A stretch of 64,000 nt of DNA from Psychromonas ingrahamii 37 (lineage in GTDB: Bacteria; Pseudomonadota; Gammaproteobacteria; Enterobacterales; Psychromonadaceae), in the NCBI RefSeq assembly GCF_000015285.1, contig NC_008709.1, positions 1,488,001 to 1,552,000 of the forward strand, given 5' to 3'. This document shows positions 3,505 to 31,586 of the stretch, one piece after another. Below the pieces are notes generated by a model. It saw only the letters and a list, made by a program, of their open reading frames with translations. It was not told where the DNA came from and did not search any database. How positions within the stretch are numbered: the stretch's first letter is position 1; each line of letters starts with the position of its first letter. A program made the position numbers and the translations under genes.

Positions 3505-3924
3505 TTGAAACCGCAGATAAAAGGTTATTTTAAAAAACAAAAATCATGTCACTATTTGAATTTCAAGCAAGTAAAATCTCATGCCAAAGCCGCAACAAAA
3601 AAATTACGAAATAGAGTCAAAGAGATCTCGAAAAGACGGTTGGAATTAGTACGCCAGTCAGATATCGTCGCCCGTTTAGGGGGAAATGAATTTGTTTTAG
3701 TTCTGAATAACTCCAAAATAAAAGATGAAACTTTGCAGGTGGCAGAGCGAATTATAAGCGTGATTAATAAGCCTGTTGAACTGTCTGGTAGCACGCTTCA
3801 AATAGGCGCATCGGTTTGGATTTTAATGTTCCCCGATGATGGCATAAAGTCGATGGATTTAATTGAAAAAGCAGATTAAGCCATGTGTGTATCAAAATCC
3901 TCAGGCAGGAATTTGATTAAATAA
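3505..3924 (+). pseudogene. GGDEF-domain relic with GGNEF signature and nonsense mutation
   Basis: The C-terminal half of a diguanylate cyclase domain. The tract VRQSDIVARLGGNEF is followed by the usual VADRI/PFEL-like region and DLIEKAD. The codon after EKAD is TAA, but the same frame continues AMCVSKSSGRNLIK to a second stop at 3922-3924. This matches the normal EKADQAMYxSKxxGRN end of GGDEF domains, so a CAA to TAA change is inferred. The catalytic GGDEF has become GGNEF. No N-terminal half, sensor domain or good start is present upstream. It is best read as a non-functional fragment. Confidence 0.8.
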
Positions 3925-7200: not shown

Positions 7201-7265
7201 TTGCTAAACCGCTACCAGAAAAGGACTTCAGCTGCTTGTTGCTGCGTCATATTCATGTGGCGTGA
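4221..7265 (+). CDS. LytS-like 5TM-PAS-PAS-PAS-GGDEF-EAL protein
   Basis: Membrane-anchored c-di-GMP enzyme of 1014 residues. Residues about 8-195 form hydrophobic helices of the 5TM-5TMR_LYT receptor type (conserved VDSRAVLLGISGLFFG and the later LYPLITALLG). Three PAS domains follow (about 205-320, 330-450, 455-575), each ending in a DITERK-like PAC tail. The GGDEF domain has an intact GGDEF signature at 662-666 and an RxxD I-site (RKRD) five residues before it. The EAL domain (EAL 790-792) keeps the metal and catalytic landmarks: EALIRW, an Asn in SINKSP, EITEG, DDFGTGYSS, LKIDQSF, AEGIE and GQGYLFAKP. Both synthesis and hydrolysis are therefore possible. The ATG at 4221 has a weak RBS; ATG 4227 is an alternative. 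It stands alone. Confidence 0.93.
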   Translation: MYMNSFGLLTLTQNAALLLAMFFIYDMAAFRNRTVFGFYWAIFTGIALGLIGIIIMLTPWEYAPGIIVDSRAVLLGISGLFFGTIPTLIAMVITATLRLFQGGGAAVIGVLVIITSGTLGIAWRYYRPHPLSELSFREIYLFGVIIHGVMLALTFIFPWEMTLAVLSNISLPVLLLYPLITALLGMLFVQRLRRNQSTDALKESEFLFRSQFDLGSIGIAITYPGKGWLRVNPRLCEILGYREEELLLLNWSELTHPDDRHLDLYQYDQMLTGEEDGYSLDKRFIRKDGESVYVHMTISCYRVDGAVQFVIAGILDSSERKHAEDKIRGRKEQLLSVLSGSELGFWDWNIEANTVHRNARWAEMLGYRFEDIQNDTSINLDSVHPNDCGRVWQSVTDHLEGRTAQHKIEYRMRTRQGEYKWILDCAKIVNYGEDQQPLRMSGTHTDITKRKLAEESMQLASMVYQNSREAMTVTDSNGNIITTNPAFTEMTGYSADEITGKSHTFIVSKQQDKRVYQRMELALNSTGHWRGEVSCRHKNGENYMALLGINSIYNEDRSVHRRVAQFSDITERKKSEKIIWKQANFDNLTGLSNRQMFHDQLLHEKNKAQRRGLNVGLLFLDLDRFKAVNDTLGHNMGDQLLIDVAQRLRNCVRKRDLVSRFGGDEFTVIIGGLKNTQSVERVAQKILCELAEPFLLGEQNVYITPSIGITFYPKDGEATEMLLKNADQAMYSAKEKGRNCYHYFTNSMQEQVERGGQLANDLRYALKKNQLELYYQPIVALGTGQIRKAEALIRWHHPELGMVSPAEFIPIAEETGTIVEIGDWVFRQAADQVAHWRREYQNDFQVSINKSPVQFREGGSDITSWLEHLLALGLPGQAVVIEITEGLLLDGSSRIVIDKLLAFRDSGIEVSLDDFGTGYSSMSYLRKFHIDNLKIDQSFVRNLKVDSDDMILCEAIIIMAHKLGMQVIAEGIENEEQRRLLSAAGCDYGQGYLFAKPLPEKDFSCLLLRHIHVA

Positions 7266-7518
7266 GAGGTTAATTAATTGATTATAAAGAGCATTAAAAT
7301 ATTCCAAGAAAAATAGACGTAATATCAAAGACCAACAATGAAATGATGAATCTGATCGCCAGTTAAGGAGAATTTTAATTTATAATAATTTTGCCGTGGG
7401 AGTTGATGCGTAGAAAGCTAAATTTTTTGGTGCATTTCTAACCCCTAAATTAGATTTTACTCAGCTCCACAGATCAAAAAATGACTGTTCCTAACTGTTT
7501 GCTTGGAGAATTTTAAAA

Positions 7519-9378
7519 ATGGTACAAAATAAAAAATCAGCAGTAAGGAAGGTTGATGACTCAAGTCAAATCTATCGGATGCCAGATGGATTACTACCAG
7601 ATCCTATCGCTGATTTCATCAAGTTGTCTGCTGCCGAAGGTGATCTCCTGTTCTGGCAATGGGAACCAAATTTAGGGCGCGTCGACTTCTATACGCCAGA
7701 AAAAGCGGCGGAAAAACAAAATTTACGGCGTCTTGGCGAAAATATATCAAACTTGATCGCTTCTAGGGTTGATAGTTTTACACTTCGCAGTGAAAAATAT
7801 GAGATTAAAATTTGTGACCCTCAGGGCAATGCGACATGGAAAAAGATTTCCCTGCGATTTTTCTTGGGAGCGGATGGGGAAATTGAACGGGTGGTTGGTA
7901 CTGCGCAGGACATCACAGATTTGATAGCAATGCAATTGGGGCTTGAAAACCAACTCGATTTTATTAATACCCTTCTGGATAGCTTGAGCAGTCCGGTATT
8001 TTTCAAGGATGCTGAACTGGTGTATCGCCATTGCAACAAAGCCTTTGAAGAATATTTGGGCAAGCCAAAGAAGGATATCCTTGCAAAGACGGTATTTGAT
8101 TTGTGTCCCCCGCATTTGGCGGAAATTTATCACCGAGCAGATCGGGATCTTCTTGAGCAGCGCTTACCACAAGTGTATCAAACAAAAGTACATTCAGCCG
8201 ATGGGATGGAGCACAATGTGATTTTCAACAAATCGATGGTGTTCAACAAAAAGGGCGAGATAACTGGAATGATTGGTATCATCAATGACATTGATGATCG
8301 CGTCCAGATGGAAAATAGACTGCAAAGGATAATGGACATTAAAGACGCGATCATGGAGATAAACCGTGCAATCACTGATGCGAACACATCGGAACAGTTT
8401 TATGCGATTGTCCTTGACTGTATTCTTTCGGCCATGCAATCGGCTGAAACCTGCGGTTTCCTGATGCTTGATTCTGTAGGCAACTTAAAAATGGTGGCTG
8501 CCAGTGGATTATACAACGCATGGAAAAAACCAGTGCAGGTGGAATTGGAAAAATCCATGGCCTGGAATGCGATGGCAGAAAATAAAAAAAGCTGTTTTTA
8601 TATCGATGATATCCACAAATTTTCCAGGCAAAAAAGCATTGAATCGCATGCTTTATTGCAGCAACTGAAAATACGTTCCCTGCTCGGTGCTCCTATTCTT
8701 AACGAAGGAAAATTGATCGGATTCATTACTGTCGGCAGCCGCAATATTGACGCCTATGACGAAACTGACCTGTTTATTATGGAGTATGTGCGCAGTCAAA
8801 TAATCCAGGTTCTTAATCGACAATTTTTATATGATAAGAATGTTACTCTGGCGCGATATGATAGTTTGACGGGGTTGCTCAACCGCAGATATTTTGAAGA
8901 ATTATTTGAAAGACATCAGAATCGCGCAAAGCGTTATGATGAAAAATTTCATTTGGTCGTAATAGACCTTGATAATTTTAAAGAGATTAATGACCAATGT
9001 GGCCATCTTTGTGGGGATGCGGTACTTGTAGATTTCGCCAAAAAATTGACCGCCTTATTTCGTGAATCTGATATTATTTGCCGCTTTGGCGGTGATGAAT
9101 TCCTCCTTGTATTAATAGATATAAATATCAGCAAACTGGTGCAGAAGATTGAATTAATAAAAACAAAACTTCAAACTATCCCCTTTATTTACAATGAAAA
9201 CAGTCTGCCTTATAGTTTCAGTTATGGAATAGCGGAATGGCCTGCGGACGGTGCCAATCTGGATCTCCTGACTTGCCGTGCGGATAATGAGATGTACAAG
9301 AACAAGCGCGCGTCAAAAAAACAGCCGAATAAGATGCACCACGCCAGTCAAAAAACAGAATCTGCGGCATTTATTTGA
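7519..9378 (+). CDS. PAS-PAS-GAF-GGDEF diguanylate cyclase
   Basis: Soluble 619-residue sensor cyclase with no membrane segment. Two PAS folds lie at about 35-135 (ending GTAQDITDL) and 145-270 (ending GIINDIDDR). A GAF domain (about 290-430) contains the LLGAPILNEGKLIGFITVGS core. The C-terminal GGDEF domain (about 450-600) has GGDEF at 524-528 and an RESD I-site five residues upstream, so product inhibition is expected. The tail after 600 is basic. GGAG at 7505-7508 is spaced ten bases from ATG 7519. Its 3' end is followed by repeat copy A and then by the FIST array. Confidence 0.92.
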   Translation: MVQNKKSAVRKVDDSSQIYRMPDGLLPDPIADFIKLSAAEGDLLFWQWEPNLGRVDFYTPEKAAEKQNLRRLGENISNLIASRVDSFTLRSEKYEIKICDPQGNATWKKISLRFFLGADGEIERVVGTAQDITDLIAMQLGLENQLDFINTLLDSLSSPVFFKDAELVYRHCNKAFEEYLGKPKKDILAKTVFDLCPPHLAEIYHRADRDLLEQRLPQVYQTKVHSADGMEHNVIFNKSMVFNKKGEITGMIGIINDIDDRVQMENRLQRIMDIKDAIMEINRAITDANTSEQFYAIVLDCILSAMQSAETCGFLMLDSVGNLKMVAASGLYNAWKKPVQVELEKSMAWNAMAENKKSCFYIDDIHKFSRQKSIESHALLQQLKIRSLLGAPILNEGKLIGFITVGSRNIDAYDETDLFIMEYVRSQIIQVLNRQFLYDKNVTLARYDSLTGLLNRRYFEELFERHQNRAKRYDEKFHLVVIDLDNFKEINDQCGHLCGDAVLVDFAKKLTALFRESDIICRFGGDEFLLVLIDINISKLVQKIELIKTKLQTIPFIYNENSLPYSFSYGIAEWPADGANLDLLTCRADNEMYKNKRASKKQPNKMHHASQKTESAAFI

Positions 9379-9460
9379 GGTTTGGTGGTCATTAATAAGT
9401 GCTAAGAGAAAATTTTCCAGGGTCTTTAAAGCAGATCCTTTTTATGCAGATACCCAGGTG

Positions 9461-9603
9461 GTATTTTCCACGAAATAATCCCCTAATCAATATAATATCA
9501 GCACCCATAAATATCCCATTTGAAGCTTAATGCAGGTGTAGCATTACTTTTACAACCCGATTTTAGTGAAAACCTGTCCTGTATTTTTATGTAGAAAAAA
9601 CCG
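9461..9603. repeat. Intergenic repeat, copy A (partial)
   Basis: About 140 bases are clearly homologous to the right half of the longer repeats at 12917-13330 and 20125-20530. Shared landmarks in order are GTATTTTCCA, AATATAATATCAGC-like, CCATAAATAT, TGAAGC, AATG/CCAGST, ATTAC and CAATTTTAG-like. It lies between the PAS-GAF-GGDEF gene and the first FIST gene. The three copies bracket the FIST array, as expected if a segment of repeat plus gene was duplicated. Confidence 0.6.
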
Positions 9604-9680
9604 TAAATAATGAATTCAAGATCAGTTACGGAGCAAAATTATCCTCGGGCTATTATGAAACATTTTGTGATTTTTCAGCA

Positions 9681-9920
9681 TCAAACCCAATTTTTGGTGA
9701 TCGCGCTTCGTACCAAATGAACCAGAGAAATCATTGTGAAGCTATCTCCTATAAGATTAAAATTGCTGATAGATGATGGTAAAACCAGTCTTGGCTTATT
9801 TTGAGATAGTGAGAGAGCTATCAATGGGCAAAAAATGATGTCACGATGGAATAAGTGACAATCAAATTTAAGACGTGATAGATATCTGATTTTACTCATT
9901 GTGATCCATTTTTTAGGCAT
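9681..9920 (-). pseudogene. Possible IS21-type istA N-terminal relic
   Basis: The minus strand from ATG 9920 reads ITMSKIRYLSRLKFDC, resembling the start of IS21-family IstA transposases (basic residues, then SMRKIREVLRLKxxxGLSxRQIA). The match fades after about 30 residues and the frame ends at 79 residues with no transposase core. A shorter related tract (GACGTGATAGAT then ATTTTA) lies at 17124-17150. Alternatively this is chance similarity inside a decayed intergenic region. The rest of 9379-10111 holds repeat copy A and the leader repeats. Confidence 0.3.
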
Positions 9921-9970
9921 GAGATTCTCATTTCTGTACCTTTTAAATATATAAATGATAGTATTTAATT

Positions 9971-10006
9971 GATTTAAAAGATTTAAAAGATTTAAAAGAT
10001 TTAAAA
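9971..10006 (+). repeat. Four tandem copies of a 9-bp unit GATTTAAAA
   Basis: The unit GATTTAAAA is repeated four times without interruption, ending about 105 bases before the first FIST gene. Single copies in the same context (TTAATTGATTTAAAA or close) lie before the second (13579-13587) and third (17229-17237) FIST genes. It is a local expansion of a conserved upstream box. Confidence 0.8.
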
Positions 10007-10062
10007 GGTAAAATCACTCCACTTTAAACTGGAATCAATGATCGTATCAGACCGAAGCATGC

Positions 10063-10078
10063 AATGTTAAATAAATTT
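10063..10078 (+). promoter_or_regulatory. Conserved leader box of FIST gene 1
   Basis: AATGTTAAATAAATTT lies about 35 bases before the start codon. The same box occurs at the same distance before FIST genes 2 and 3. It could be a promoter -10 region or an operator; an AAGAAGG ribosome site follows at 10095-10101. Confidence 0.45.
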
Positions 10079-10111
10079 AATATAGCACTGCAATAAGAAG
10101 GCGTGTGCTAA

Positions 10112-12916
10112 ATGAAGTTAATAAACTGCCAGTTTAGAACAAAAAATGATTTAGAACTTTTTATAGATCAAAATATTAACGATGCTAATATTTCTATTTT
10201 AATTCAAGTTTTTAGTGGTGATTTGAATATTGCTCATGTTCAGCAAGTGTTAGATACTTTAAAGTTCAAACTTCCACATGCAACGATCATTGGTTGCTCA
10301 ACGGCTGGCGAGATAGCTTCTGGCGCCATGAAAAAGAATACTATTCAAATTTCTTTCTCTCTTTTTGAAAAAACCAATCTTCAACTCTTTTATTACCCTC
10401 AAACAAATTTTACAACGGGTGAGAAAGCTTCATGTGATGTTATTTCCCAAAATACAAAAGCCGTTATTGCTTTTAATGAGGCCTTTAAAGGGGATGCTGA
10501 ACTTTTTTTCGAAGGGTTTTCATCTAAAAAACAAAATGCCCCCATCTCCGGCGGAAACGCTGGCGATAATCTTTTATATGGGAAAACTTTTGTTATCTAT
10601 GACGATAAAATTTATTTTGAGGGCATCGTCCTTTGTGCGTTGAATAGCGATAGCTTACATGCACACACAAATCATTCCTTCAGCAGTGCTTCTATCGGCA
10701 CAGAAATGATTGTTACTAAGGCTGTGGATAATGTGATCTATGAAATAGATTACACGCCTGTCGATAAAATTTATAGATATTATCTGGGGGATAATATTCT
10801 ACAACATTTTCCAATGAGTGTTGTTGAATTTCCATTGGTAAAAATAGAGGGAGAAATGACTGTTGCCAGATCAGCCGCTAGAATAAATGAAGACGGTGGA
10901 TTTTTATATATAGGTCATTTTGAAAATGGCGATAAAGTGAAATTTGCAATAACAAACAGTGTAGAGACATTCTCAAAATCAGATGATTTATATACAAAAA
11001 TAATGTCTAATCCCGTTGAAGCTACCTATGTTTATTCCTGTGCAGGCAGAAAAAGATTCCCAACAAAATGTCTGAATTATGAACTTGGGCTGATTGAAAA
11101 AGTCGCCCCTTCGAGTGGTTTTTTCAGCTATGGAGAGTTTTTTTATTCAAAAACAAAAAATCACCTTTTAACGCTCACTACAACGACGCTGAGTTTGTCT
11201 GAAACAGACATTATTCAAAGCCCAGATGAAATTCCAAAAAGGATAAACGGCCATTCTATATTAAACCCACTGATACACTTAGTTAATGTCTCAGATACGA
11301 ACTTAAATCAGTATAAACAACTTTTAGATAAGAGTTCTATTGTCTCAAAAGCAGACATTCAAGGTGTTATCATTTATGTTAATGATAATTTTTGTAAAAT
11401 TTCAGGCTACTCTCGAGAAGAATTGATTGGAAAAAACCACAGTATAGTAAGGCATCCGGATAACAGTAATAGCATATTTAAAAATATGTGGACGACTATC
11501 ACTGCTAAAAAAGTCTGGAAAGGCACGCTAAAAAACCGTGCAAAAGACGGCTCCACCTACTATGTAAAGACCTTAATAATGCCTATTCTAGATGACCAGG
11601 GACATATTGTAAGTTATATAGCGGCAAGAACCGATGTGACAGAACTAATAAAAAAAGACGAAATTATTAAACAACAAAATGAAGATAAGCTAACCGGTTT
11701 AAAAAATAGAAGTGCACTGATAGACAAACTGAAAGACATTAAGAGAGAAGATGCGACGCTTATTCTTATGAATATAGATAGATTTTCTGATATTAATGAT
11801 TATTACGGTTATGAGAAAGGTGATAAAACCTTGGAACATTTTGCCTCTGTTCTTAAAGGTAAATATGTTGAATTTTCCAGAATAAGCAGTGACGTCTCTA
11901 GCGTCAGTTGTGATATTTTTAGAATAAGTGGTGATGAGTTTGCAATACTTTGCGAGCACTCATTAGATAAAAAAATAAAAGAGATGATAGCAGGGTTGAT
12001 TATGAGCCTGGAGAATGAAGTATATGAAATATTAGATGATAAAATCACCTTGCTTTTATCGTGTGGAGTGGCTAATGGTGCTAAAAATGAAATATATAAT
12101 CTTGCCCATATTGCTTTAAAAGAAAATAAAAAAGATAATAATACAGTTACTTTTTTTAATGATAATATGAATTTATACAACAAAATAGCAGAAAATATAA
12201 AAGTGATAGCAAGCATAAAAGAGGGAATACTTAACGATAAATTTGTGCCCTTTTATCAAGGTATAGTTAATAATAAAACCAAAAAAATAACTAAATATGA
12301 GTGTCTGATACGCTTAAAAGAAGAAAATGGTAAGGTGCTGACGCCGTATTTTTTTCTGGAACATGCTAAAAAAGCGAAGCTTTATTATAAACTTACGATG
12401 ATTATGATCAGGAAATCATTTGAAAAGTTTGCAGGCAATAACTCTGATTTTTCTATCAACTTTACACTTCAAGATATTCAATCCGAGACCGTTGTAAGCA
12501 TGTTGATGGATTATCTTGAGCGGTATCAATGTGGAAACAGATTAATTATAGAAATAGTCGAGTCTGAAGGAATTGAAAATTTTAATGAACTGTCAGATTT
12601 CATAAAACAGATTAAAAAATACGGTTGTAAAGTGGCAATAGATGATTTCGGATCAGGCTATTCTAACTTTCATTATTTATCAAAATTAGATGTGGACTAT
12701 ATAAAAATAGATGGCTCTTTAATAAAAAATATAGATAATGACCCCTCTCAACTTGCAACCGTTGAGAGTATTTTACTTTTTGCTAAAAAGATGAATATAA
12801 AAACGATTGCTGAATTTGTTGAGACAAAAAACATTTATGATATTTTAAATGATTTAGGCGTTGATTTTTCCCAAGGATACTATTTTTCTAAACCACAGGA
12901 AGAAATAGAAAAATAA
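10112..12916 (+). CDS. FIST-PAS-GGDEF-EAL protein, paralogue 1
   Basis: Cytosolic 934-residue c-di-GMP enzyme without membrane segments. FIST_N is at about 25-195 (IIGCSTAGEI, later ISGGNAGDN) and FIST_C at about 215-355; FIST domains bind small ligands, and some family members (NosP) are haem NO sensors. A PAS domain (about 405-515) resembles the FAD-binding PAS of Aer: SGYSREELIGKNHSIVRHPD, MWxTI, WKGTLKNRAKDG, RTDVTEL. The GGDEF domain has SGDEF at 606-610, preceded by two extra 7-residue repeats (11876-11917). The EAL domain has ECL at 730-732 (YECLIRL) and keeps EIVESEG, DDFGSGYSN, YIKIDGS, AEFVE and SQGYYFSKP. ATG 10112 is fixed by an in-frame TAA immediately upstream. Visibly more AT-rich than the genes outside the array. 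Confidence 0.92.
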   Translation: MKLINCQFRTKNDLELFIDQNINDANISILIQVFSGDLNIAHVQQVLDTLKFKLPHATIIGCSTAGEIASGAMKKNTIQISFSLFEKTNLQLFYYPQTNFTTGEKASCDVISQNTKAVIAFNEAFKGDAELFFEGFSSKKQNAPISGGNAGDNLLYGKTFVIYDDKIYFEGIVLCALNSDSLHAHTNHSFSSASIGTEMIVTKAVDNVIYEIDYTPVDKIYRYYLGDNILQHFPMSVVEFPLVKIEGEMTVARSAARINEDGGFLYIGHFENGDKVKFAITNSVETFSKSDDLYTKIMSNPVEATYVYSCAGRKRFPTKCLNYELGLIEKVAPSSGFFSYGEFFYSKTKNHLLTLTTTTLSLSETDIIQSPDEIPKRINGHSILNPLIHLVNVSDTNLNQYKQLLDKSSIVSKADIQGVIIYVNDNFCKISGYSREELIGKNHSIVRHPDNSNSIFKNMWTTITAKKVWKGTLKNRAKDGSTYYVKTLIMPILDDQGHIVSYIAARTDVTELIKKDEIIKQQNEDKLTGLKNRSALIDKLKDIKREDATLILMNIDRFSDINDYYGYEKGDKTLEHFASVLKGKYVEFSRISSDVSSVSCDIFRISGDEFAILCEHSLDKKIKEMIAGLIMSLENEVYEILDDKITLLLSCGVANGAKNEIYNLAHIALKENKKDNNTVTFFNDNMNLYNKIAENIKVIASIKEGILNDKFVPFYQGIVNNKTKKITKYECLIRLKEENGKVLTPYFFLEHAKKAKLYYKLTMIMIRKSFEKFAGNNSDFSINFTLQDIQSETVVSMLMDYLERYQCGNRLIIEIVESEGIENFNELSDFIKQIKKYGCKVAIDDFGSGYSNFHYLSKLDVDYIKIDGSLIKNIDNDPSQLATVESILLFAKKMNIKTIAEFVETKNIYDILNDLGVDFSQGYYFSKPQEEIEK

Positions 12917-13330
12917 AGACTCTTTCCCAATAAACATTGCTTTGAACGGTGCGAACTGCAGCTCTCTTGGTTACATTTTAATACGCTTATGCGCCTCCTA
13001 GAGAGTGATATTTCATAGGACAGCTCCACGCACAATGGAATGTCAATCGTGCTAATATTTTTTTGCGGCAAGACTGTGCGACGTTTTTCTGTTAGCGGGT
13101 TTCAATCGTGTTCTCCGTGAAATAGCCGCTGGATTAATACAATGTCAGCCCTATAAATCTTCTTTCTGAAGCCAAACGCAGCTGTATAATTACCGCTGCA
13201 GCCCAATTTTATCCAAAGATTGGCTGTCCTATCCTTCCGTCTATTTTTCCCTACCCGGAACAAAGTTGAATGGTCGCACCTAACCAAACACTTTCTTGTA
13301 TTTTTGTCTAAGAAAAAACGTATGATAAAA
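12917..13330. repeat. Intergenic repeat, copy B, downstream of FIST gene 1
   Basis: The region is homologous to 20125-20530 after FIST gene 3 and, in its right part, to 9461-9603. Shared tracts include GCGGCAAGACTGTGCGACG followed by TTTTTCTG, ATAGCCGCTGGATTAATACA followed by ATGTCAGC, and TTTCTGAAGC. On the minus strand both B and C can be read as peptides sharing ADIVLIQRLF and TEKRRTVLPQK, but each has stops or frame changes. It is either a decayed small gene or a non-coding repeat. The remainder to 13757 is the leader of FIST gene 2. Confidence 0.65.
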
Positions 13331-13708
13331 CTTGATTTATTGATGCGAAGGGCAGAGCTGGAAATCAGGTTTTTAATTTTTATGAACAGCAATAATGAAG
13401 GGCTGCATTAATTGCTGTTATAATGGCTACCTTTAGAATTGATCGCGCATTCCAGCTGTTAAAGCAGTTGTATTGAGTGACAATGAAATGAAAGAAATAA
13501 TAACTCTCTCATTTCCTATTTTTGTCATTACATTGTCTTTTCTGTATATTAAATAGACATAAAAAAGAGCATTTAATTGATTTAAAAGATAAAAATAAGT
13601 TATTCTGGTGTTAGGTTAAAAGCTATTGTATAAGAGTCAAATGGTTAATCAGTTTAAGCGGCGATTGGTTAAGCTGGGAATAGATATTTGAATAAGCCCT
13701 AAACATGC

Positions 13709-13724
13709 ATGTTAAATAAATTTT
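13709..13724 (+). promoter_or_regulatory. Conserved leader box of FIST gene 2
   Basis: ATGTTAAATAAATTTT lies 34 bases before the start codon, equivalent to the boxes before FIST genes 1 and 3. A single GATTTAAAA unit lies upstream at 13579-13587, and AAAAAGG at 13741-13747 is the ribosome site. Confidence 0.45.
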
Positions 13725-13757
13725 AATACAATAGAGTAATAAAAAGGTGTGTGCTCG

Positions 13758-16556
13758 ATGAAGTTAATAAACTACCAGTTTAAAACAAAAAATGATTTAG
13801 AACTTTTTATAGATGAAAATATCAAAAAGACTCATCTTTCTATTTTAATTCAAGTTTTTAGCGGTGATTTAAATATTGACAATATCCTGCAAGTTTTAGA
13901 TATTTTAAAGTCCAAACTCCCACATGCAGCCATCATTGGTTGCTCAACGGCTGGCGAGATTGTTTCTGGCGCCATGAAAAATAATACTCTTCAAATTTCT
14001 TTCTCTCTTTTTGAAAAAACCAATCTCCAACTTTTTTATTACCCTCAAACAAACTTTGAAGATGGAGAGAAAGCTTCAAGTGAAATAGTGTCTCAAAATA
14101 CAAAAGCTGTTATCGCTTTTAGTGAAGCATTTAAAGGTGATTCTGAACTTTTTTTAGAAGGGTTCTCATCTAAAAAACAACATATCCCTATCTCTGGCGG
14201 AAATGCCGGTGATAATCTTTTATATAAAAAAACCTTTATTATCTATGACAATAAGATTTATTTTGAGGGCATCGTCCTGTGTGCACTGAATAGCGACAGC
14301 TTATGTGTACACTCAAATTATTCCTTCAGCAGTGTGTCTATTGGTACAGAAATGATTGTCACTAAGGCTGTGGATAATGTGATCTATGAGATAGATCACA
14401 CGCCGGTCAAGAAAATTTACCAATACTATTTGGGAGAGCATATTCTAGAAAATTTTCCAGTCAGTGTTCTCGAATTTCCATTGGTAAAAATAGAGGAGGA
14501 AATGAGTGTTGCCAGAATAGCCATGAGCATGACGGAAGAGGGTGGATTTATCTATCTAGGTCATTTTAAAAATGGCGATAAGGTGAAATTTGCCATAACA
14601 AACAATGCAGAAATATCTTCAAAATCATATGATTTATATAAGAATATTATTTGTAATCCAGTTGAAGCTACTTATATTTATTCATGTTCTGCTAGGAAAC
14701 AATTCCCCAAAAAATGTTTGAATTATGAACTTCGATTGATTGAAAAAATAGCCCCTTCAGTTGGCTTTTTCAGCTATGGAGAGTTTTTTCATTCAAAAAT
14801 AAAAAATCAACTTTTAACTGTCACTACAACGACCCTGAGTTTGTCTGAAGCAGATATTATACAAAGCACAGATGAGGTGCTAGAAAGCATGCGCAGCACT
14901 AATATGCTGAGTTCATTGGTACACTTAGTTAATGTCTCAGATGAGAACTTAAATCAATATAAAGAGCTTTTAGATAAGAGTTCTATTGTGTCAAAAGCCG
15001 ATACTCGAGGGGACATCATTTATGTTAATGATGAGTTTTGTACTATTTCGGGCTACTCTCGAGAAGAATTGCTTGGCAATAATCACAGTATCGTTAGGCA
15101 TCCGGATAACAGTAATGCCATATTTAAAAACATGTGGACGACTATTACGGCTAAAAAAGTCTGGAAAGGCACGCTAAAAAATCGTGCAAAAGATGGCTCC
15201 ACCTACTATGTAAAGACCTTAATTATGCCTATTCTAGATGACTCGGGACAGATTATAAGTTATATAGCGGCAAGAACGGACGTAACAGAACTAATAGAAA
15301 AAGACAAAATTATTAGACAACAGTATAAAGATAAGTTGACCGGGTTACAAAATAGAAATGCACTGATAGATAAACTAAAAAAAATCAAGAATGAAGATGC
15401 GACGCTTATTCTTATTAATATAGATAGATTTTCTGATATTAATGATTATTACGGCTATGAAAAAGGTGATAAAACCTTGGGACTCTTTGCATCTGTTCTT
15501 AAAAATAAATATTCTGAATTCTTTAAAATAAACGGAGAAATCGTTAAAATAAGGGGCGAAATATTTAGAATAAGCGGTGATGAGTTTGCAATACTTTGCG
15601 AACATTCATTAGATAAAGAAACAAAAGAGATGATAGCAGGCTTGATTATTGATCTGGAGAATGAAGTCTATGAAATACTGGACGATAATATTACCTTGCT
15701 TTTATCTTGCGGAGTGGCCAGTGGCGCGAAAAATGAAATATATAATCTTGCCCATATTGCCTTAAAAGAAAATAAAAAAGATAATAATATAGTTACTTTT
15801 TTTAATGATAATATGAACTTATATAGAAAAATTGCAGATAATATAAAAATAATAGCAAGCATAAAAGAGGGAATACTTAACGATAAATTTGTGCCCTTTT
15901 ATCAAGGCATAGTTAATAATAAAACCAAAAAAATAACTAAATATGAGTGTCTGATACGCTTAAAAGAAGAAAATGGCAAGGTTCTGGCGCCGTACTTTTT
16001 TCTGGAACATGCTAAAAAAGCGAAGCTTTATTATAAGCTTACGATGATTATGATCAGGAAATCATTTGAAAAGTTTGCAGGCAATAACTATGATTTTTCT
16101 ATCAACTTTACACTTCAAGATATTCAATCCGTGACCGTTGTAAGCATGCTGATGGATTATCTTGAGCAATATCAATGCGGAAACAGATTAATTATAGAAA
16201 TAGTCGAGTCTGAAGGAATTGAAAATTTTAATGAACTGTCAGATTTTATAAAACAGATTAAAAAATACGGTTGTAAAGTGGCAATAGATGATTTTGGATC
16301 AGGCTATTCTAACTTTCATTATTTATCAAAATTAGATGTGGACTATATAAAAATAGATGGCTCTTTAATAAAAAATATAGATAATGACCCCTCTCAACTT
16401 GCAACCGTTGAGAGTATTTTACTTTTTGCTAAAAAGATGAATATAAAAACGATTGCCGAATTTGTAGAGACAGAAAATATTTATGATATTTTAAATGATT
16501 TAGGCGTTGATTTTTCCCAAGGGTACTATTTTTCTAAACCACAAGAAAGCATCTAG
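13758..16556 (+). CDS. FIST-PAS-GGDEF-EAL protein, paralogue 2
   Basis: 932-residue paralogue of the preceding gene, with the same order FIST_N, FIST_C, Aer-like PAS, GGDEF and EAL. The PAS keeps VRHPD and KDG. The cyclase signature is SGDEF and the phosphodiesterase signature is YECLIRL, with the downstream catalytic residues intact. Just before SGDEF stand three 7-residue units, FKINGEI, VKIRGEI and FRISGDE (15522-15584), two more than in paralogue 3. A GTG at 13749 would add three residues, but ATG 13758 aligns with the fixed starts of paralogues 1 and 3 and sits about 10 bases after AAAAAGG. The EAL halves of paralogues 1 and 2 are nearly identical while the FIST halves differ more, so recent duplication or gene conversion is likely. 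Confidence 0.92.
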   Translation: MKLINYQFKTKNDLELFIDENIKKTHLSILIQVFSGDLNIDNILQVLDILKSKLPHAAIIGCSTAGEIVSGAMKNNTLQISFSLFEKTNLQLFYYPQTNFEDGEKASSEIVSQNTKAVIAFSEAFKGDSELFLEGFSSKKQHIPISGGNAGDNLLYKKTFIIYDNKIYFEGIVLCALNSDSLCVHSNYSFSSVSIGTEMIVTKAVDNVIYEIDHTPVKKIYQYYLGEHILENFPVSVLEFPLVKIEEEMSVARIAMSMTEEGGFIYLGHFKNGDKVKFAITNNAEISSKSYDLYKNIICNPVEATYIYSCSARKQFPKKCLNYELRLIEKIAPSVGFFSYGEFFHSKIKNQLLTVTTTTLSLSEADIIQSTDEVLESMRSTNMLSSLVHLVNVSDENLNQYKELLDKSSIVSKADTRGDIIYVNDEFCTISGYSREELLGNNHSIVRHPDNSNAIFKNMWTTITAKKVWKGTLKNRAKDGSTYYVKTLIMPILDDSGQIISYIAARTDVTELIEKDKIIRQQYKDKLTGLQNRNALIDKLKKIKNEDATLILINIDRFSDINDYYGYEKGDKTLGLFASVLKNKYSEFFKINGEIVKIRGEIFRISGDEFAILCEHSLDKETKEMIAGLIIDLENEVYEILDDNITLLLSCGVASGAKNEIYNLAHIALKENKKDNNIVTFFNDNMNLYRKIADNIKIIASIKEGILNDKFVPFYQGIVNNKTKKITKYECLIRLKEENGKVLAPYFFLEHAKKAKLYYKLTMIMIRKSFEKFAGNNYDFSINFTLQDIQSVTVVSMLMDYLEQYQCGNRLIIEIVESEGIENFNELSDFIKQIKKYGCKVAIDDFGSGYSNFHYLSKLDVDYIKIDGSLIKNIDNDPSQLATVESILLFAKKMNIKTIAEFVETENIYDILNDLGVDFSQGYYFSKPQESI

Positions 16557-17360
16557 GAAGAATAAACAAACCTTATACAGCAGTCTGCAATCCAGTCGCT
16601 CAATACCCATGACGGTGCGAATCTTTCAGAAATAGGGTCTCAATGGCGCTGCATTAAGCTATATTTTCTAACTATAAGGGATAAATTCTTTAGAATTTAG
16701 GGAGAGCAACCGGATAAAATTATATAATAAACTCTCTGCAAAAAACACAATTCCCCTGACTACCTGAACAGTTTTAACACTCAGCTCTCTGTGAAAGCAT
16801 CAAAAAACGTATTACTTTCAAGGAAGGGGGATTTTCTTAATTCACTAAAATCTTGACCTATTTTTACAATCATTAAAAAGTGACTTCACATTATCGGGGA
16901 GCATTTTTAGCCCTCTCTCTCTCATGCTTGTAATGCTTATCAAGCCAGCGCTTATTTTTGACCCTTCATTTATCCATGTTGTTAATAAATTTATCATTGA
17001 TCAGTTGCCCCAAAATATCAGTAAATCAACGGGCTCTTTTTACCGCAGTGATAAAACCACCTGTTGAACTTATTGAAGAATTAGCTCGTCATACAGGCAG
17101 TGTTATTAATGACAAAAATTAAAATAAAGACGTGATAGATCTCTTATTTTATGTCATAAAGACCCTTTTGTTCGTAATGAAATAGCCTCTTCTGTATTTT
17201 AAAGGGTCAGAAATGATACTATTAAATTGATTTAAAATAGATAATCTCGTGGTTAGGTCAAAAGTGATTGTATAAGAGCGAAACAGGTGTTCGAATAAGT
17301 CCGCAACATCCAATGTTAAATAAATTTGAATACAATACGGTTATAGAAGGCCTGTGCTAA
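16557..17360. other. Intergenic region between FIST genes 2 and 3
   Basis: About 800 bases without an intact gene. Repeat B/C is absent here, unlike after genes 1 and 3. A short plus-strand protein-like tract (VELIEELARHTGSVINDKN, near 17063-17121) ends in a stop and may be a relic. From 17124 on, the sequence resembles the flank upstream of FIST gene 1 (GACGTGATAGAT), followed by the GATTTAAAA unit at 17229-17237 and the leader box of gene 3. Confidence 0.5.
17313..17327 (+). promoter_or_regulatory. Conserved leader box of FIST gene 3
   Basis: ATGTTAAATAAATTT lies 33 bases before the start codon, as in FIST genes 1 and 2, and AGAAGG at 17345-17350 serves as ribosome site. Confidence 0.45.
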
Positions 17361-20156
17361 ATGAAGTTAATAAACTACCAATTTAGAACTAAAGATGATT
17401 TAGAACTTTTTATAGATGAAAATATTAAAGAGCCTGATTTCTCTATTTTAATTCAAATTTTTAGTGGTGATTTGAATATTGAACATGTCCAGCAAGTTTT
17501 AGATAGTTTAACGTCCAAACTCCCACATGCAGCGATCATTGGTTGTTCAACGGCTGGCGAGATTGTTTCTGGTGCTGTGAAAGAAAACACTATCCAAATT
17601 TCTTTCTCAATTTTTAAAAAAACAGCTCTCCAACTCTTTTATTACCCTAAAACAAACTTTAAAGCCGGTGAGAAAGCTTCAGATGAAGTGGTTTCTCAAA
17701 ATACAAAAGCTGTTATCGCTTTTAGTGAGCCATTCAAAGGTAATTCTGAACTTTTTTTAGAAGGGTTTTCATCTAAAAAACCAAACATTCCCATAGCTGG
17801 CGGAAACGGAGGCGATAATTATTTATTTGAGAAAACCTTTATTATCCGTGGTGATAAAATTTATTTTGAAGGCATCGTCCTGTGTTCGCTGAACAGTGAT
17901 AGCTTATATGCTCATACAAATTATTCTTTAAGCAATGTTTCTATTGGTACAGAAATGATTATCACCAAGGCCGTGGATAATGTGATCTATGAGATAGATC
18001 ACACACCTGTGAAAAACATTTACCAATACTATCTGGGAGAGACTATTTCAAACAATTTCCCAGCCAGTGCCATGGAATTTCCATTGCAAAAAATAGAAGA
18101 GGAAATGAGTGTTGCCATGACATCTGTTGGCATGACGGAAGAGGGGGGATTTATCTATGTAGGTCATTTTAAAAATGGCGATAAAGTCAAATTTTCTATA
18201 ACAAACACCGGAAAAATATTCTCAAAAGCATATGAATTATATAACAGTATGATTTGTCATCCAGTTGAAGCTACTTATGTTTATTCTGGTGCGACAAGAA
18301 AAACATTTCCAAAAAAATGTTTGGATTATGAACTTGGATTGATTGAAAAAGTGGCCCCTTCGAGTGGTTTTTTTTGCTATGGAGAGTTTTTTCATTCAAA
18401 AATAAAAAGTCAACTTTTAACAGCCGCTGCAACGACGCTGAGTTTGTCTGAAACAGGCATTATGCAAAGCCTCAATGAGATTCCAAAAACAATAAATAAC
18501 AGCACTAAGCTAAACTCATTGATACACTTAGTTAATGTCTCAGATAAGAACTTAAATCAATATAAACAACTTTTAGATAAGAGTTCTATTGTGTCAAAAA
18601 CAGACATTCGAGGGGTTATAATTTACGTTAATGATAAATTTTGTGAAGTTTCAGGCTACGCTAGAGAAGAATTGATTGGAAAGAAACACAGTATAGTGAG
18701 GGACCCCGATAGTAGTCGGGCTATATTTAAAAATATGTGGAAGACTATTGCCGCTAAAAAAGTCTGGAAAGGCACGCTAAAAAACCGTGCAAAAGACCGC
18801 TCCACTTACTATGTAAAGACCTTTATTATGCCTATTCTAGATGACGATGGACAGATTATAAGTTATATAGCGTCAAGAACCGACGTAACAGAACTAATAG
18901 AAAAAGACAAAATTATTAAACAACAATATAAAGACAGGTTAACCGGATTACAAAATAGAAATGCACTGATAGATAAAATAAAAAAAATAAAGAGTGAACA
19001 TGCGACGCTTATTCTCATTAATATAGATAGATTTTCTGATATTAATGATTATTATGGCTATGAAAAAGGTGATAAAACCTTGGAACATTTCGCCTCTGTT
19101 CTTAAAAGTAAATGCTTTGAGGTCTTTAGAATAAGTGGTGATGAGTTTGCTCTACTTTGCGAATATCCATTAGATCAAAAGAAAAAAAATACGATAGCAG
19201 AGTTTATTACTGGGCTTGAGAATGAAGTGTATAATATATTGGCCGATAAAATCACCTTACTTTTATCTTGCGGAGTGGCTCATGGCGCGAAAAATGAAAT
19301 ATATAATCTTGCCCATGTTGCTTTAAAAGAAAATAAAAAAGATAACAATATAGTTACTTTTTTCAATGATAATATATATTTACACAATAAAATAGCCGAA
19401 AATATAAAAGTGATAGCAGGGATAAAAGAGGGAATACTCAATGATAAATTTGTACCTTTTTATCAAGGCATCGTCGATAATAAAACGCTAAAAATAACTA
19501 AATATGAGTGTCTTATTCGCTTAAAAGAAGACAATGGTAAGGTCTTAGCGCCGTATCTTTTTTTGGAACATGCTAAAAAAGCGAAGCTTTATTATAAGCT
19601 TACGATGATTATGATCAGAAAATCATTTGAAAAATTTGCAGATAATAATTATGATTTTTCTATCAATTTCACACTTCAAGATATTCAGTCAGTGAAAGTT
19701 GTAAGCATGTTGATGGATTATCTTGAACTATATCAATGCGGTAGTCGATTAATTATAGAAATAGTAGAGTCTGAAGGAATAGAAAATTTTGATGAAGTGT
19801 TGGTTTTTATAAAAAAAATTAAAAAACAGGGTTGTAAAGTGGCAATAGATGATTTTGGTTCAGGCTATTCTAACTTTAATTATTTATCAAAATTAGATGT
19901 GGACTATATAAAGATAGATGGCTCTTTAATCCAAAATATAGACAATGACCCCGCGCAACTTGCAACCGTTGAAAGTATTTTACACTTTGCTAAAAAGGTG
20001 AATATAAAAACGATTGCCGAATTTGTGGAGACAGAAAATATTTATGATATTTTAAATGATTTAGGCGTTGACTATTCTCAAGGGTATTATTTTTCTAAAC
20101 CACAAAAAGGATTGGAGGAGAATAAAACTCCTTTGCCAAAAAAAATGTTGGTTTGA
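17361..20156 (+). CDS. FIST-PAS-GGDEF-EAL protein, paralogue 3
   Basis: 931-residue third paralogue and the most diverged. FIST_N/FIST_C, Aer-like PAS, GGDEF (SGDEF, no preceding repeat expansion; FRISGDE at 19125-19145) and EAL (YECLIRL, DDFGSGYSN, SQGYYFSKP) are all present. Two changes fall in the PAS motif positions shared with Aer: VRHPD has become VRDPD (Asp at residue 448) and KDG has become KDR. These may alter flavin binding. The C-terminus runs about 12 residues further than in paralogues 1 and 2, into sequence homologous to the 3' flank of gene 1. ATG 17361 is fixed by a TAA directly upstream. Confidence 0.92.
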   Translation: MKLINYQFRTKDDLELFIDENIKEPDFSILIQIFSGDLNIEHVQQVLDSLTSKLPHAAIIGCSTAGEIVSGAVKENTIQISFSIFKKTALQLFYYPKTNFKAGEKASDEVVSQNTKAVIAFSEPFKGNSELFLEGFSSKKPNIPIAGGNGGDNYLFEKTFIIRGDKIYFEGIVLCSLNSDSLYAHTNYSLSNVSIGTEMIITKAVDNVIYEIDHTPVKNIYQYYLGETISNNFPASAMEFPLQKIEEEMSVAMTSVGMTEEGGFIYVGHFKNGDKVKFSITNTGKIFSKAYELYNSMICHPVEATYVYSGATRKTFPKKCLDYELGLIEKVAPSSGFFCYGEFFHSKIKSQLLTAAATTLSLSETGIMQSLNEIPKTINNSTKLNSLIHLVNVSDKNLNQYKQLLDKSSIVSKTDIRGVIIYVNDKFCEVSGYAREELIGKKHSIVRDPDSSRAIFKNMWKTIAAKKVWKGTLKNRAKDRSTYYVKTFIMPILDDDGQIISYIASRTDVTELIEKDKIIKQQYKDRLTGLQNRNALIDKIKKIKSEHATLILINIDRFSDINDYYGYEKGDKTLEHFASVLKSKCFEVFRISGDEFALLCEYPLDQKKKNTIAEFITGLENEVYNILADKITLLLSCGVAHGAKNEIYNLAHVALKENKKDNNIVTFFNDNIYLHNKIAENIKVIAGIKEGILNDKFVPFYQGIVDNKTLKITKYECLIRLKEDNGKVLAPYLFLEHAKKAKLYYKLTMIMIRKSFEKFADNNYDFSINFTLQDIQSVKVVSMLMDYLELYQCGSRLIIEIVESEGIENFDEVLVFIKKIKKQGCKVAIDDFGSGYSNFNYLSKLDVDYIKIDGSLIQNIDNDPAQLATVESILHFAKKVNIKTIAEFVETENIYDILNDLGVDYSQGYYFSKPQKGLEENKTPLPKKMLV

Positions 20157-20530
20157 ACGGATGCGAGCTGCCCAGCTCTCTTGGCTACATTTTGATGCGT
20201 TTATGCGACCCCTAGAGAGTGAAATAATCTCGACTTTGGCTTTTGCGTGATAGTTGAGAACGGATACGCTCGTTCATCACTTCGATTGAGCAGAGCGACC
20301 TTTTATAGGATAGGTCCCCGCAACCTGGGATATTATTCGCACTGATATTTTTTGCGGCAAGACTGTGCGACGTTTTTCTGTGAACAGGTTCCAATAGTAT
20401 TTTCCATAAAATAGCCGCTGGATTAATACAATGTCAGCATCCATAAATATTCTTTCTGAAGCGTAATCCAGCTCTACAATTACTGTTGCAGCTACCAATT
20501 TTAGCCAAAGATTAGCTGTTCTATTTTTTC
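20125..20530. repeat. Intergenic repeat, copy C, downstream of FIST gene 3
   Basis: Homologous to copy B (12917-13330) over most of its length, with small insertions, and to copy A over its right half. It begins inside the last codons of FIST gene 3. It fills the gap to the convergent PAS-GGEEF gene. No terminator-like T-run hairpin is obvious. Confidence 0.65.
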
Positions 20531-20553
20531 GACTGTTTTTTTATCTAAACATT

Positions 20554-21477
20554 TCAGGTTCTACATAACGCGACAGATAGACATGAAACCTGATTGCGGC
20601 CTTTGTGCTTTGCATGATACATCGCATGATCCGCATCTCGTTGAATATCCACGATCGCTTTGTGATGTATCAATTTTGATGCAACCCCAATGCTGGCTGT
20701 AATACCTATATTTTTATCTGTGCCGACTGGGTGGAGCAACTGCTCGATATTGGAACGCAATTTTTCCGCAAAAATCATCGCGCCTGACATGCCTGTTTCT
20801 GGTAGAAAGAGAGAAAACTCTTCACCACCAACTCTACCGATAAGGTCACTGTCTCTGCAAGTTTCTAATATGCAGGCTGAGACCGCCTTGAGAAGGAGAT
20901 CGCCGACATGGTGTCCGTGTGTGTCATTAATTTTTTTAAAGTGGTCAAGATCAACAAAAAGAACCGAGAATGGTTTATTGTGGCGAAGTGCGATGCTCAT
21001 CATTCGCTCACAGACTTCATAATAAGCGCGGGCATTTAATAAATTGGTTAAGGAGTCATGATCTGCCAACAATTTTAATTGTTTGTTAGCTTCGGCAAGC
21101 TGTCGTTCAATCTTTTTTTGTTTAGTGATATCGGTCAAAGCAGCCATTACACCAACAGCTAATCCATCATTGTCACGAACGGGTTTAACTGATGTGTAGC
21201 ATATTTTGTCCCCTATTTTTAATTCTCGATTAGGCACATCTAATCCTGCATCGAACATACGAAACTCATATTTTATATTCTCTGCGGCTTCTTTACTTAC
21301 CTCTTCAACTTTGCGTCCAATGAGGTCACTTAGATTCTGTCCACTTAGCAATGCCATTTTATGGTTGACCAGGAGCAAACGGCCTTCTCTGTCGGTTAAA
21401 GCCATTGCAACAGGCATAGATTCGAAAAGGGTTTCCATATCGATATTACCTTGCAGTAGGTCCAGTTTTTTAATCAT
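20554..21477 (-). CDS. PAS-GGEEF diguanylate cyclase
   Basis: Soluble 307-residue diguanylate cyclase. An N-terminal PAS (about 15-118) ends in ALTDITKQKK and is joined by a short coiled linker to a GGDEF domain (about 135-300). The A-site is GGEEF at 217-221, the other active variant of the signature, and RDSD five residues upstream is a consensus I-site. The VDLDHFKKINDTHGHHVGD tract and the ADHAMYHAKHKGRN end are complete. It starts at ATG 21477 and is convergent with the FIST array. The protein carries no membrane segment, so its signal is probably cytosolic. Confidence 0.92.
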   Translation of the reverse strand: MIKKLDLLQGNIDMETLFESMPVAMALTDREGRLLLVNHKMALLSGQNLSDLIGRKVEEVSKEAAENIKYEFRMFDAGLDVPNRELKIGDKICYTSVKPVRDNDGLAVGVMAALTDITKQKKIERQLAEANKQLKLLADHDSLTNLLNARAYYEVCERMMSIALRHNKPFSVLFVDLDHFKKINDTHGHHVGDLLLKAVSACILETCRDSDLIGRVGGEEFSLFLPETGMSGAMIFAEKLRSNIEQLLHPVGTDKNIGITASIGVASKLIHHKAIVDIQRDADHAMYHAKHKGRNQVSCLSVALCRT

Positions 21478-22786: not shown

Positions 22787-23935
22787 TTACAGAGAGTCTA
22801 TTTTGATTTCAGAATAGCTATAGCGTACATGGCAGGTACCTTCGGGGGAAACCATGCACGGACCGAAGGGTTTGCTCGGGGTGCAGGCTTTTTTAAATAA
22901 TTTACAATCCTGAGGCTCTACCTCGCCGAGCATTACTCTATGACAGAGACAGCTCGGATGATGGGCTTGCGGCGAATAGGGCGGTTTACAGGCAAGCTGT
23001 TTCCTGGCGTCAAGAAAGGCGTATTTATCTTTAAGCACGTAGGCAGAATCTTCCACTTTGTCTATTCCGCGCCACACGCCGGGTATAAGATCAAACACTT
23101 CCTTAAGACATTGTTGCGCTTTCAGATTGCCCTCATTTTTAATCACTCTGCTGTAGCAGTTAATCACTTGATGCTGATCGTTTTTGATAAGTGTTAACAG
23201 TTCGCGAATCGCCAGCAGGATATCAACGGGTTCAAAACCTGCCGTGGCACAAGGCAGCTTAAACTCGTCGCGCATAAAATCATAAACCCCCAAGCCGGTA
23301 ATGGCGGTTGCATGGCCTGCCAGTAGAAATCCCTGCAGGCTGTCATCATGGACCTCCATCAATAATTTCAATACTGGCGGCATATAACGATTGGCTATCA
23401 GAAAAAAGAGGTTTTTGGGGACACCCGAGTGGATCAGTCCAGCAATGCCCGCTGCGGTTGTTTCAAAACCGACAGAGAAAAAAACAAAGGTCTGCTGCGG
23501 CGAATCTTGGGCAAATTTGATCGCATCAAGGGGGCTATAGACGACTTTTACACTGCCGCCATTGACGCGGGCTTCCTCTAAGGAGCTGTTAGTTGCGGGC
23601 ACCCGCAGAATATCGCCGAAAGTGAGCAGGGTAACTTTGGGCAGCAGGGCAAGGGTGATTGCTTCATCGATTGACTCTACCGGGCAAACGCAGACCGGGC
23701 AACCTGGACCTGCGATAACCTTAATATGTGCGGGTAAAAATTGGCGGATGGCATAGCGGACAATGGCATTTTCATGGCCGCCGCAAATATGCATTATTTT
23801 TAGCGGGGCCATTTGCGCAGCGATTAATTTTATCTCCTGCGCCAGTTTATTAACTATCTCCCGATCTTTAAAGGCATCCGGATTGAATTTTTTACTTATT
23901 GTCATCTTGTTCTTATTTGTTGTCATCCTGGTCAT
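22787..23935 (-). CDS. hypD: Hydrogenase maturation factor HypD
   Basis: [4Fe-4S] scaffold protein which, with HypC, holds the Fe(CN)2CO unit while it is built for the [NiFe] site. The 382 residues include all HypD landmarks: MHICGGHE, AGPGCPVCVCP, FFSVGFETTAAG, LLAGHATAITG and FEPVDIL. The C-terminal cysteine region (SCLCHRVMLGEVEPQDC ... FGPCMVSPEGTC) carries the cluster ligands. The start at 23935 overlaps the end of the preceding hypX gene by 23 bases. ATG 23926 or ATG 23905 (372 residues, nearer the usual length) are equally plausible, and none has a strong RBS. Last gene of the hox-hyp operon. Confidence 0.95.
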   Translation of the reverse strand: MTRMTTNKNKMTISKKFNPDAFKDREIVNKLAQEIKLIAAQMAPLKIMHICGGHENAIVRYAIRQFLPAHIKVIAGPGCPVCVCPVESIDEAITLALLPKVTLLTFGDILRVPATNSSLEEARVNGGSVKVVYSPLDAIKFAQDSPQQTFVFFSVGFETTAAGIAGLIHSGVPKNLFFLIANRYMPPVLKLLMEVHDDSLQGFLLAGHATAITGLGVYDFMRDEFKLPCATAGFEPVDILLAIRELLTLIKNDQHQVINCYSRVIKNEGNLKAQQCLKEVFDLIPGVWRGIDKVEDSAYVLKDKYAFLDARKQLACKPPYSPQAHHPSCLCHRVMLGEVEPQDCKLFKKACTPSKPFGPCMVSPEGTCHVRYSYSEIKIDSL

Positions 23936-24773: not shown

Positions 24774-24774
24774 A

Positions 24775-26639: not shown

Positions 26640-26676
26640 AACTGATCCTTATTTTTGTTTTTTATGCCGGCAGGAT

Positions 26677-26910: not shown

Positions 26911-26936
26911 AGTCTGCTCTCTTATTATCATTTTCT

Positions 26937-28605: not shown

Positions 28606-28616
28606 TATGTCCTCTT

Positions 28617-28735: not shown

Positions 28736-28763
28736 AATAAGGGGTCTGTTTTTTATATCACGC

Positions 28764-30263: not shown

Positions 30264-30276
30264 TAATCATTGTCCA

Positions 30277-31578: not shown

Positions 31579-31586
31579 TAATAACC

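Follow-up and report, generated by a model that had tools for sequence, protein, structure and literature searches.

The window analysed here is a 64,000-nucleotide stretch of the genome of the marine bacterium Psychromonas ingrahamii 37 (NC_008709.1, positions 1488001–1552000). It contains three tandem genes, here called copies 1–3 (g1–g3), each of which encodes FIST, FIST_C, one PAS region, GGDEF and EAL domains, all above their Pfam cut-offs in every copy. On balance, we favour the reading that these genes encode soluble one-component phosphodiesterases of cyclic di-GMP (c-di-GMP) with a FIST ligand input and a flavin-redox input. Their sequences indicate that a gene for a phosphodiesterase with two sensors was truly triplicated and has been well preserved. 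Its product would be of the CdpA kind with an added redox input and not a new class, that is, a modified, locally multiplied variant of an enzyme kind known from Vibrio. In the mechanism that we propose, the FIST-FIST_C module would bind a small ligand, and the PAS domain, which resembles those of Aer, NifL and MmoS, probably senses redox state through bound flavin adenine dinucleotide (FAD). The GGDEF domain, which is partly disabled, may serve as a structural or GTP-binding relay between both inputs and the intact EAL domain, which would lower c-di-GMP. The proteins would then work like the CdpA/VF_0087 type, plus a redox input.

The initial annotation described three full-length FIST-PAS-GGDEF-EAL paralogues of 934, 932 and 931 amino acids (aa), and all three prove to be intact and on the same strand (Table 1). 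For copy 2 this length counts from the ATG; the mechanically called open reading frame (ORF) uses the GTG at 13749 as its start and has 935 aa. The spacers measure 841 bases between copies 1 and 2 and 804 bases between copies 2 and 3, with 733 bases upstream of copy 1. An assembly duplication, a concern raised with the annotation, is ruled out: the copies differ at 16–21% of their residues, and a single contig of 4,559,598 bases makes up the genome.

Divergence and history of the copies

The proteins of copies 1 and 2 are 84.2% identical, those of copies 1 and 3 79.0%, and those of copies 2 and 3 80.9%. Synonymous divergence (dS) between copies is 0.33–0.44. The ratio of nonsynonymous to synonymous divergence (dN/dS) is 0.24–0.26 among the three copies, or 0.22–0.28 once the relative Psychromonas sp. 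MB-3u-54 is included, values that are pairwise and do not test each copy separately. By region, the ratio falls to 0.10–0.12 in the EAL domain and rises to 0.57–0.74 in the FIST-PAS linker. No copy looks decayed, and the keeping of three copies stressed in the initial annotation is borne out as pairwise purifying selection. The division of labour suggested there has some sign in its favour: copy 3 is changed at C310 in FIST and H448 in PAS, and copies 1 and 2 share a repeat beside the GGDEF motif.

Strain MB-3u-54, the nearest named relative found and a sister species, has one copy of 920 aa at the corresponding place (locus L005), flanked by matches to the 5′ flank of copy 1 and the 3′ flank of copy 3. 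The flank repeats of the window also border this single copy on both sides. Further upstream, the window gene at 7519–9378 has no match in the MB-3u-54 region, where an opposite-strand ORF of 242 aa stands instead. Copy 3 splits off before copies 1, 2 and that of MB-3u-54 both in an EAL tree (95/83) of 39 rows that we chose from 82 EAL ORFs and in a FIST tree (97) of 69 of the 95 FIST ORFs. The latter leaves out duplicates, fragments and near-copies; it was built by a quick method with a midpoint root and has some long branches. Among 119 informative two-versus-two sites, the pairing of copy 1 with copy 2 is supported by 43, that of copy 1 with MB-3u-54 by 46, and that of copy 1 with copy 3 by 30. 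These sites are clustered along the gene (60 runs against a shuffled mean of 79.1, with 2 of 10,000 shuffles as low), a pattern that suggests exchange among the copies. We read it as gene conversion or unequal exchange together with copy loss in MB-3u-54, which probably once had more copies; other orders of events are possible.

We conjecture that the array formed by unequal exchange between direct repeats bordering the unit, at about the time when the lineage of MB-3u-54 split off or earlier, that the copies have exchanged sequence since, and that MB-3u-54 was probably reduced to one copy. The three copies of the window would have been retained under purifying selection, copy 3 diverging in sensor residues and copies 1 and 2 in a loop beside the GGDEF motif. 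Alternatively, the array may be a product of recombination whose copies are redundant, a neutral or dosage amplification without any division of labour. We regard this as plausible though doubtful: local flank repeats, clustered site patterns, the 94–99% nucleotide identity of copies 1 and 2 from about column 691 onward (most of the EAL part) and the sufficiency of a single copy in MB-3u-54 all fit it, whereas the low pairwise dN/dS and the copy-specific changes at conserved sensor positions argue against it.

Catalytic output, sensory inputs and kinship with CdpA

In the alignment, the EAL domains of all three copies have the expected residue at each of nine positions (E716, N769, E803, D830, D831, K851, E887, E890 and Q907 in copy 3 numbering), whose roles we presume from EAL enzymology. 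The EAL signature itself reads ECLIR. In V. fischeri, an AxLxR mutant of VF_0087 attenuates the effects of that protein (PMC11575326). The published mutagenic primer for the VF_0087 ACL change, decoded by hand as AST-A-CLMR, fits the ASTECLMR of locus L090, a FIST-FIST_C-GGDEF-EAL gene by Pfam. Together, the mutant and the primer suggest that the ECLxR variant is functional in VF_0087.

The GGDEF domains are more altered. Their signature is SGDEF in all three copies, with serine for the first glycine of GG(D/E)EF; the I-site RxxD is absent from all three sequences; and a gap followed by NN takes the place of GRN in the alignment, so that its arginine is gone. Copies 1 and 2 also carry a 14-residue insertion next to the motif (Table 1), placed from the protein alignment with an uncertainty of about one codon. 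Its units are identical at 12–16 of 21 positions. Only 4 of 913 in-frame positions in copy 1 and 5 of 911 in copy 2 score as high (the site itself included), as against 260 of 910 for the place of the insertion in copy 3. The insertion is absent from copy 3, from MB-3u-54 and from G003, a relative 51% identical. In a model of low confidence, a pair of strands is preserved at the GGDEF motif after the insertion.

On the input side, the PAS domain of copy 1, the copy compared with solved chains, is nearest among distinct PDB proteins to 3ewk (3.8e-37), Aer 8dik (3.2e-25) and 2gj3 (2.2e-18). We take 3ewk to be MmoS and 2gj3 to be NifL, and all three to be FAD proteins. The sequence thus supports the Aer flavin type assigned in the initial annotation; all copies retain W460, W469 and N475. 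For FIST, residues were counted over 79 of the 95 domains, with 16 duplicate or cut ORFs omitted. Position 310 is cysteine in 70 of 78 other FISTs and in 28 of 28 other EAL-fused ones, and glycine in copy 3 and in two of 13 GGDEF-fused FISTs. Copy 3 also has methionine at R253, an arginine in 54 of 79 FISTs; since just 5 of 28 other EAL-fused FISTs have arginine there, this change weighs less. All window copies and MB-3u-54 lack W192, present in 68 of 78 FISTs.

The closest characterised enzymes are Vibrio FIST-GGDEF-EAL proteins with an altered GGDEF, namely CdpA of V. cholerae and VF_0087 of V. fischeri. CdpA (VC0130) is a FIST-FIST_C/EAL phosphodiesterase (PMC8846402; PMC4624772) whose activity requires its degenerate GGDEF domain (PMC3974145). 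In our comparison, relatives stand in for the V. cholerae protein. The window copies share with this type the N-terminal FIST-FIST_C, the altered GGDEF and an EAL domain with ECLxR (read in Vibrio-like loci). Their EALs and those of the CdpA-like proteins fall in a common starred branch of the EAL tree (98/86; 21 rows), which also holds three rows that lack FIST. Tandem pairs occur in Vibrio-like genomes too. The window copies differ in their added flavin-type PAS, their less degenerate GGDEF, their neighbours and their number, three recent copies. The metal aspartate and SGDEF are kept in the window and lost in six Vibrio-like alignment rows, so that the GGDEF is not dead in the manner of CdpA-like proteins. 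Nor are the FISTs sisters in the FIST tree. Histidines 282, 354 and 355, of the CdpA type, are each found in 23 of the 28 EAL-fused FISTs from elsewhere and in none of the three copies.

Two other protein kinds resemble the window copies. DibA, a PAS-GGDEF-EAL phosphodiesterase, has the same domain order and is the top NCBIfam match (217.1, 215.2 and 215.5 bits for copies 1–3), but it lacks FIST, and these scores lie far below its equivalog cut-off of 980. Family f104 (L132–L134) likewise joins FIST, PAS, GGDEF and EAL in one protein (by Pfam in L133 and L134). Its two PAS domains, canonical GGDEF and different position in the EAL tree point to an independent assembly.

The initial annotation called the array an undescribed signalling module, which is too strong: a 2022 review lists FIST-FIST_C with GGDEF, EAL or HD-GYP, and CdpA is characterised (PMC8846402). 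A survey of V. alginolyticus likewise reports one or two c-di-GMP proteins that contain FIST (PMC10552763). We found no description of FIST-PAS-GGDEF-EAL proteins or of such an array in the open-access literature. VP2979 of V. parahaemolyticus (PMC8215210) was left out of the comparison, since no link to FIST was established for it.

Several observations weigh against the reading of these proteins as two-input phosphodiesterases related to CdpA. The window GGDEFs retain the metal aspartate, the asparagine, the guanine aspartate, the second glycine, the motif D and E, and the lysine in the alignment. Moreover, ECA3270 works with SGDEF and VF_A0057 probably does as well, though CdgG does not, and serine at the place of the first glycine inactivated VCA0965 (PMC3974145; PMC11575326). 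The altered GGDEF makes the joint cyclase and phosphodiesterase output raised in the initial annotation less likely, though some cyclase activity may be present. The proteins might thus be bifunctional or mainly diguanylate cyclases, with the PAS and FIST inputs switching between c-di-GMP synthesis and breakdown. This we consider unlikely in view of the lost glycine, the replaced GRN and the absent RxxD, the rank of the window copies (47–49 among the 57 GGDEF matches in the genome), the insertion adjoining the motif in two of them, and the complete loss of the GGDEF motif in the EAL relatives G038 and G029, which have PAS without FIST. A second difficulty for the phosphodiesterase reading concerns descent: the window EALs have as their closest rows three without FIST (L020, L028 and L144; branch 88/82), and in the FIST tree the window FISTs are not united with the CdpA-like ones, so that FIST and EAL may have been fused on two occasions. 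Thirdly, the PAS motif RHPD of copies 1 and 2 is not kept in copy 3 (RDPD), MB-3u-54 (RHPG) or G003 (RHPT). For FIST, a phmmer search with copy 3 found no relative among solved structures at E up to 1. An AlphaFold2 model of copy 2 from a 10-sequence alignment has a mean predicted local distance difference test (pLDDT) score of 53.6; it is partly confident in PAS, GGDEF and EAL and leaves the FIST unfolded (pLDDT <50 over 49–405). Finally, whether duplication preceded the species split is judged from the basal place of copy 3 in two trees, a signal that exchange between copies blurs.

NosP-type sensing and the distribution of FIST genes

The initial annotation also raised haem and nitric oxide (NO) sensing of the NosP type. 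The window copies do share with NosP the FIST-FIST_C family and the core residues G61, G147, G148, R313, G336, G341 and E342, and CdpA, likewise a FIST-EAL protein, is stated to be haem-inhibited (PMC8846402). Against the NosP equivalog (NCBIfam NF041558, cut-off 450), however, copies 1 and 2 score 51.1 and 46.3 bits, and copy 3 falls outside the best 25 matches, the 25th of which scores 44.6 bits. The one true NosP of the genome is a separate gene at 552.4 bits. Of the His/Cys columns shared by five NosP sequences, just two are matched in the window, by C62 in every copy and by C310 in copies 1 and 2; both cysteines are frequent among other FISTs. The columns with a conserved histidine hold none in the window copies; copy 1 has histidines one or more places off one of them. 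The absence of these histidines, and of the three CdpA-like ones, bears on haem binding indirectly. The FIST tree separates 32 FISTs without GGDEF or EAL from 37 output-fused rows (one of them a gene fragment). The window FISTs group with the latter, apart from NosP, and their nearest neighbour beyond their own group is L017, a FIST-GGDEF protein of another Psychromonas. Whereas NosP is a solo FIST beside a histidine kinase, the window FISTs are fused to output domains. Judged from these comparisons, the window copies are not NosP, and we think it improbable that they combine a c-di-GMP enzyme with a NosP-like sensor of haem or NO.

L102 1251–4920 holds the true NosP and, next to it, an 865-aa hybrid histidine kinase that has PAS and receiver domains; as called mechanically, their ORFs overlap. 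No H-NOX was found in the genome.

FIST domains are present in 15 of 24 genomes of the genus. An alignment search for FIST matched 47 of 394 genomes of the order (E 1e-20), 42 of 369 of the class (1e-15) and 12 of 398 of the phylum (1e-40), samples that overlap and include the window's own genome. Searched against 60 relatives, the whole copy 3 protein had full-length matches in G021 and G003, among the matches listed. Architectures were read for 95 FIST ORFs (duplicates included) and seven more loci, and rows without a locus were left unread. Among the loci read, FIST with one PAS, GGDEF and EAL occurs only in three Psychromonas genomes, those of the window, G021 (whose ORFs are identical to those of MB-3u-54) and G003; f104 has the form with two PAS domains. 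In the Vibrio-like family f21, 10 of the 20 matching genomes (G043, G131, G271, G279, G288, G297, G315, G333, G360 and G369) have two FIST matches 2.6–3.1 kb apart. All seven of these pairs that were read (L083–L089) consist of PAS-less FIST-GGDEF-EAL ORFs with an altered GGDEF, the second ORF being broken in G315 (L089). From their first residues, the neighbours of the pairs are presumably dapF, xerC and a gene for a HAD hydrolase; f21 is called Vibrio-like for this gene order and for its two large contigs. No further triple FIST-EAL array was seen among the loci read, and no relative was found in the viral contigs. Two other fusions were observed: L145 (G841, of another class) encodes FIST-PAS-PAS-HD_5, the first PAS being similar to that of the window, and L100, from a genome of the same genus, has FIST fused to a chemoreceptor signalling domain.

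FIST ligands and FIST signalling to c-di-GMP enzymes are little known according to the 2022 review (PMC8846402). The array offers three natural variants on one scaffold with few differences (C310G, R253M, H448D and the GGDEF-side repeat), a list short enough to allow a direct comparison of FIST-to-EAL signalling. It is tempting to speculate, at long odds, that the three genes are a locally evolving sensor array: three two-input phosphodiesterases undergoing gene conversion while their sensor pockets diverge, with the 21-bp triplication in a GGDEF strand as a new allosteric element in two copies. If so, one bacterium would read different ligands or redox thresholds through a single output, and the Vibrio-like tandem FIST-EAL genes would show the same tendency, either independently or at an earlier date.

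Leaders, flanks and neighbouring genes

The shared leader noted in the initial annotation is real, its last ∼190–240 bases being alignable in the three copies and in the single copy of the sister species (Table 1). GATTTAAAA is found in all four of these leaders (three in the window and one in MB-3u-54) and is repeated before copy 1 only. ATGTTAAATAAATTT is identical in the three window leaders, has one mismatch in MB-3u-54 and is not conserved in G003. Much of this conservation is expected from the common descent of the duplicated unit. Over 9379–20600, neither promoter-like sites (51 against 47.4 in shuffles, standard deviation 7.3) nor terminator-like sites (7 against 5.4, standard deviation 2.0) exceed chance. 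An RNA element in the leader was rejected, the matches at Rfam gathering level in the window being three tRNAs only.

Table 1. Positions in the window of the three genes and their associated features
Feature	Position	Strand	Description	Source
Copy 1 (g1)	10112–12916	+	934 aa, FIST-FIST_C-PAS-GGDEF-EAL	ORF list, Pfam
Copy 2 (g2)	13758–16556	+	932 aa from ATG, FIST-FIST_C-PAS-GGDEF-EAL	ORF list, Pfam
Copy 3 (g3)	17361–20156	+	931 aa, FIST-FIST_C-PAS-GGDEF-EAL; FIST C310G and R253M, PAS H448D	
g1 leader	9911–10111	+	common to g2 and g3	
g2 leader	13519–13757	+	common to g1 and g3	
g3 leader	17169–17360	+	common to g1 and g2	
14-residue insertion in g1	11873–11914	+	two added 21-bp units, directly ahead of the GGDEF hairpin	
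Corresponding 14-residue insertion in g2	15519–15560	+	two extra 21-bp units	
Partial flank-repeat copy upstream of g1	9464–9571	+		
3′ flank repeat after g1	12959–13202	+	matches g3 flank	
3′ flank repeat after g3	20173–20492	+		genome search

The 3′ flank repeat after copy 1 is a possible substrate for unequal crossing-over. A genome search with the 3′ flank of copy 3 matches only that flank itself and the place after copy 1 (three rows). A mobile repeat as the cause of the array was rejected, the 3′ flank repeat being confined to this locus in the genome. Where the spacer that separates copy 2 from copy 3 begins (16557–17117), it aligns poorly with the other spacers and holds no copy of the flank repeat.

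The array lies within 17 kb (4221–21477) that contain six c-di-GMP genes, namely one each for 5TM-PAS-GGDEF-EAL and PAS-GAF-GGDEF, the FIST genes of copies 1–3 and, on the opposite strand, a PAS-GGDEF gene. A GGDEF remnant with an in-frame stop inside lies at 3619–3912 (contig 1491619–1491912). The genome paper of P. ingrahamii gives 61 c-di-GMP regulators (PMC2405808). On the other side of the array, 22787–35913 holds an NAD-linked [NiFe] hydrogenase with hyp genes. One ORF of this region (30280–31578) combines Fer2_4/NADH-G with Oxidored_q6 domains, presumably the layout of a HoxU-HoxY fusion. The enoyl-CoA hydratase and formyl transferase C parts are two adjacent ORFs, which we take to be HypX-like halves. 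Near two such halves in MB-3u-54, a sequence matching window positions 24749–24810 occurs three times (L005 19300–19436).

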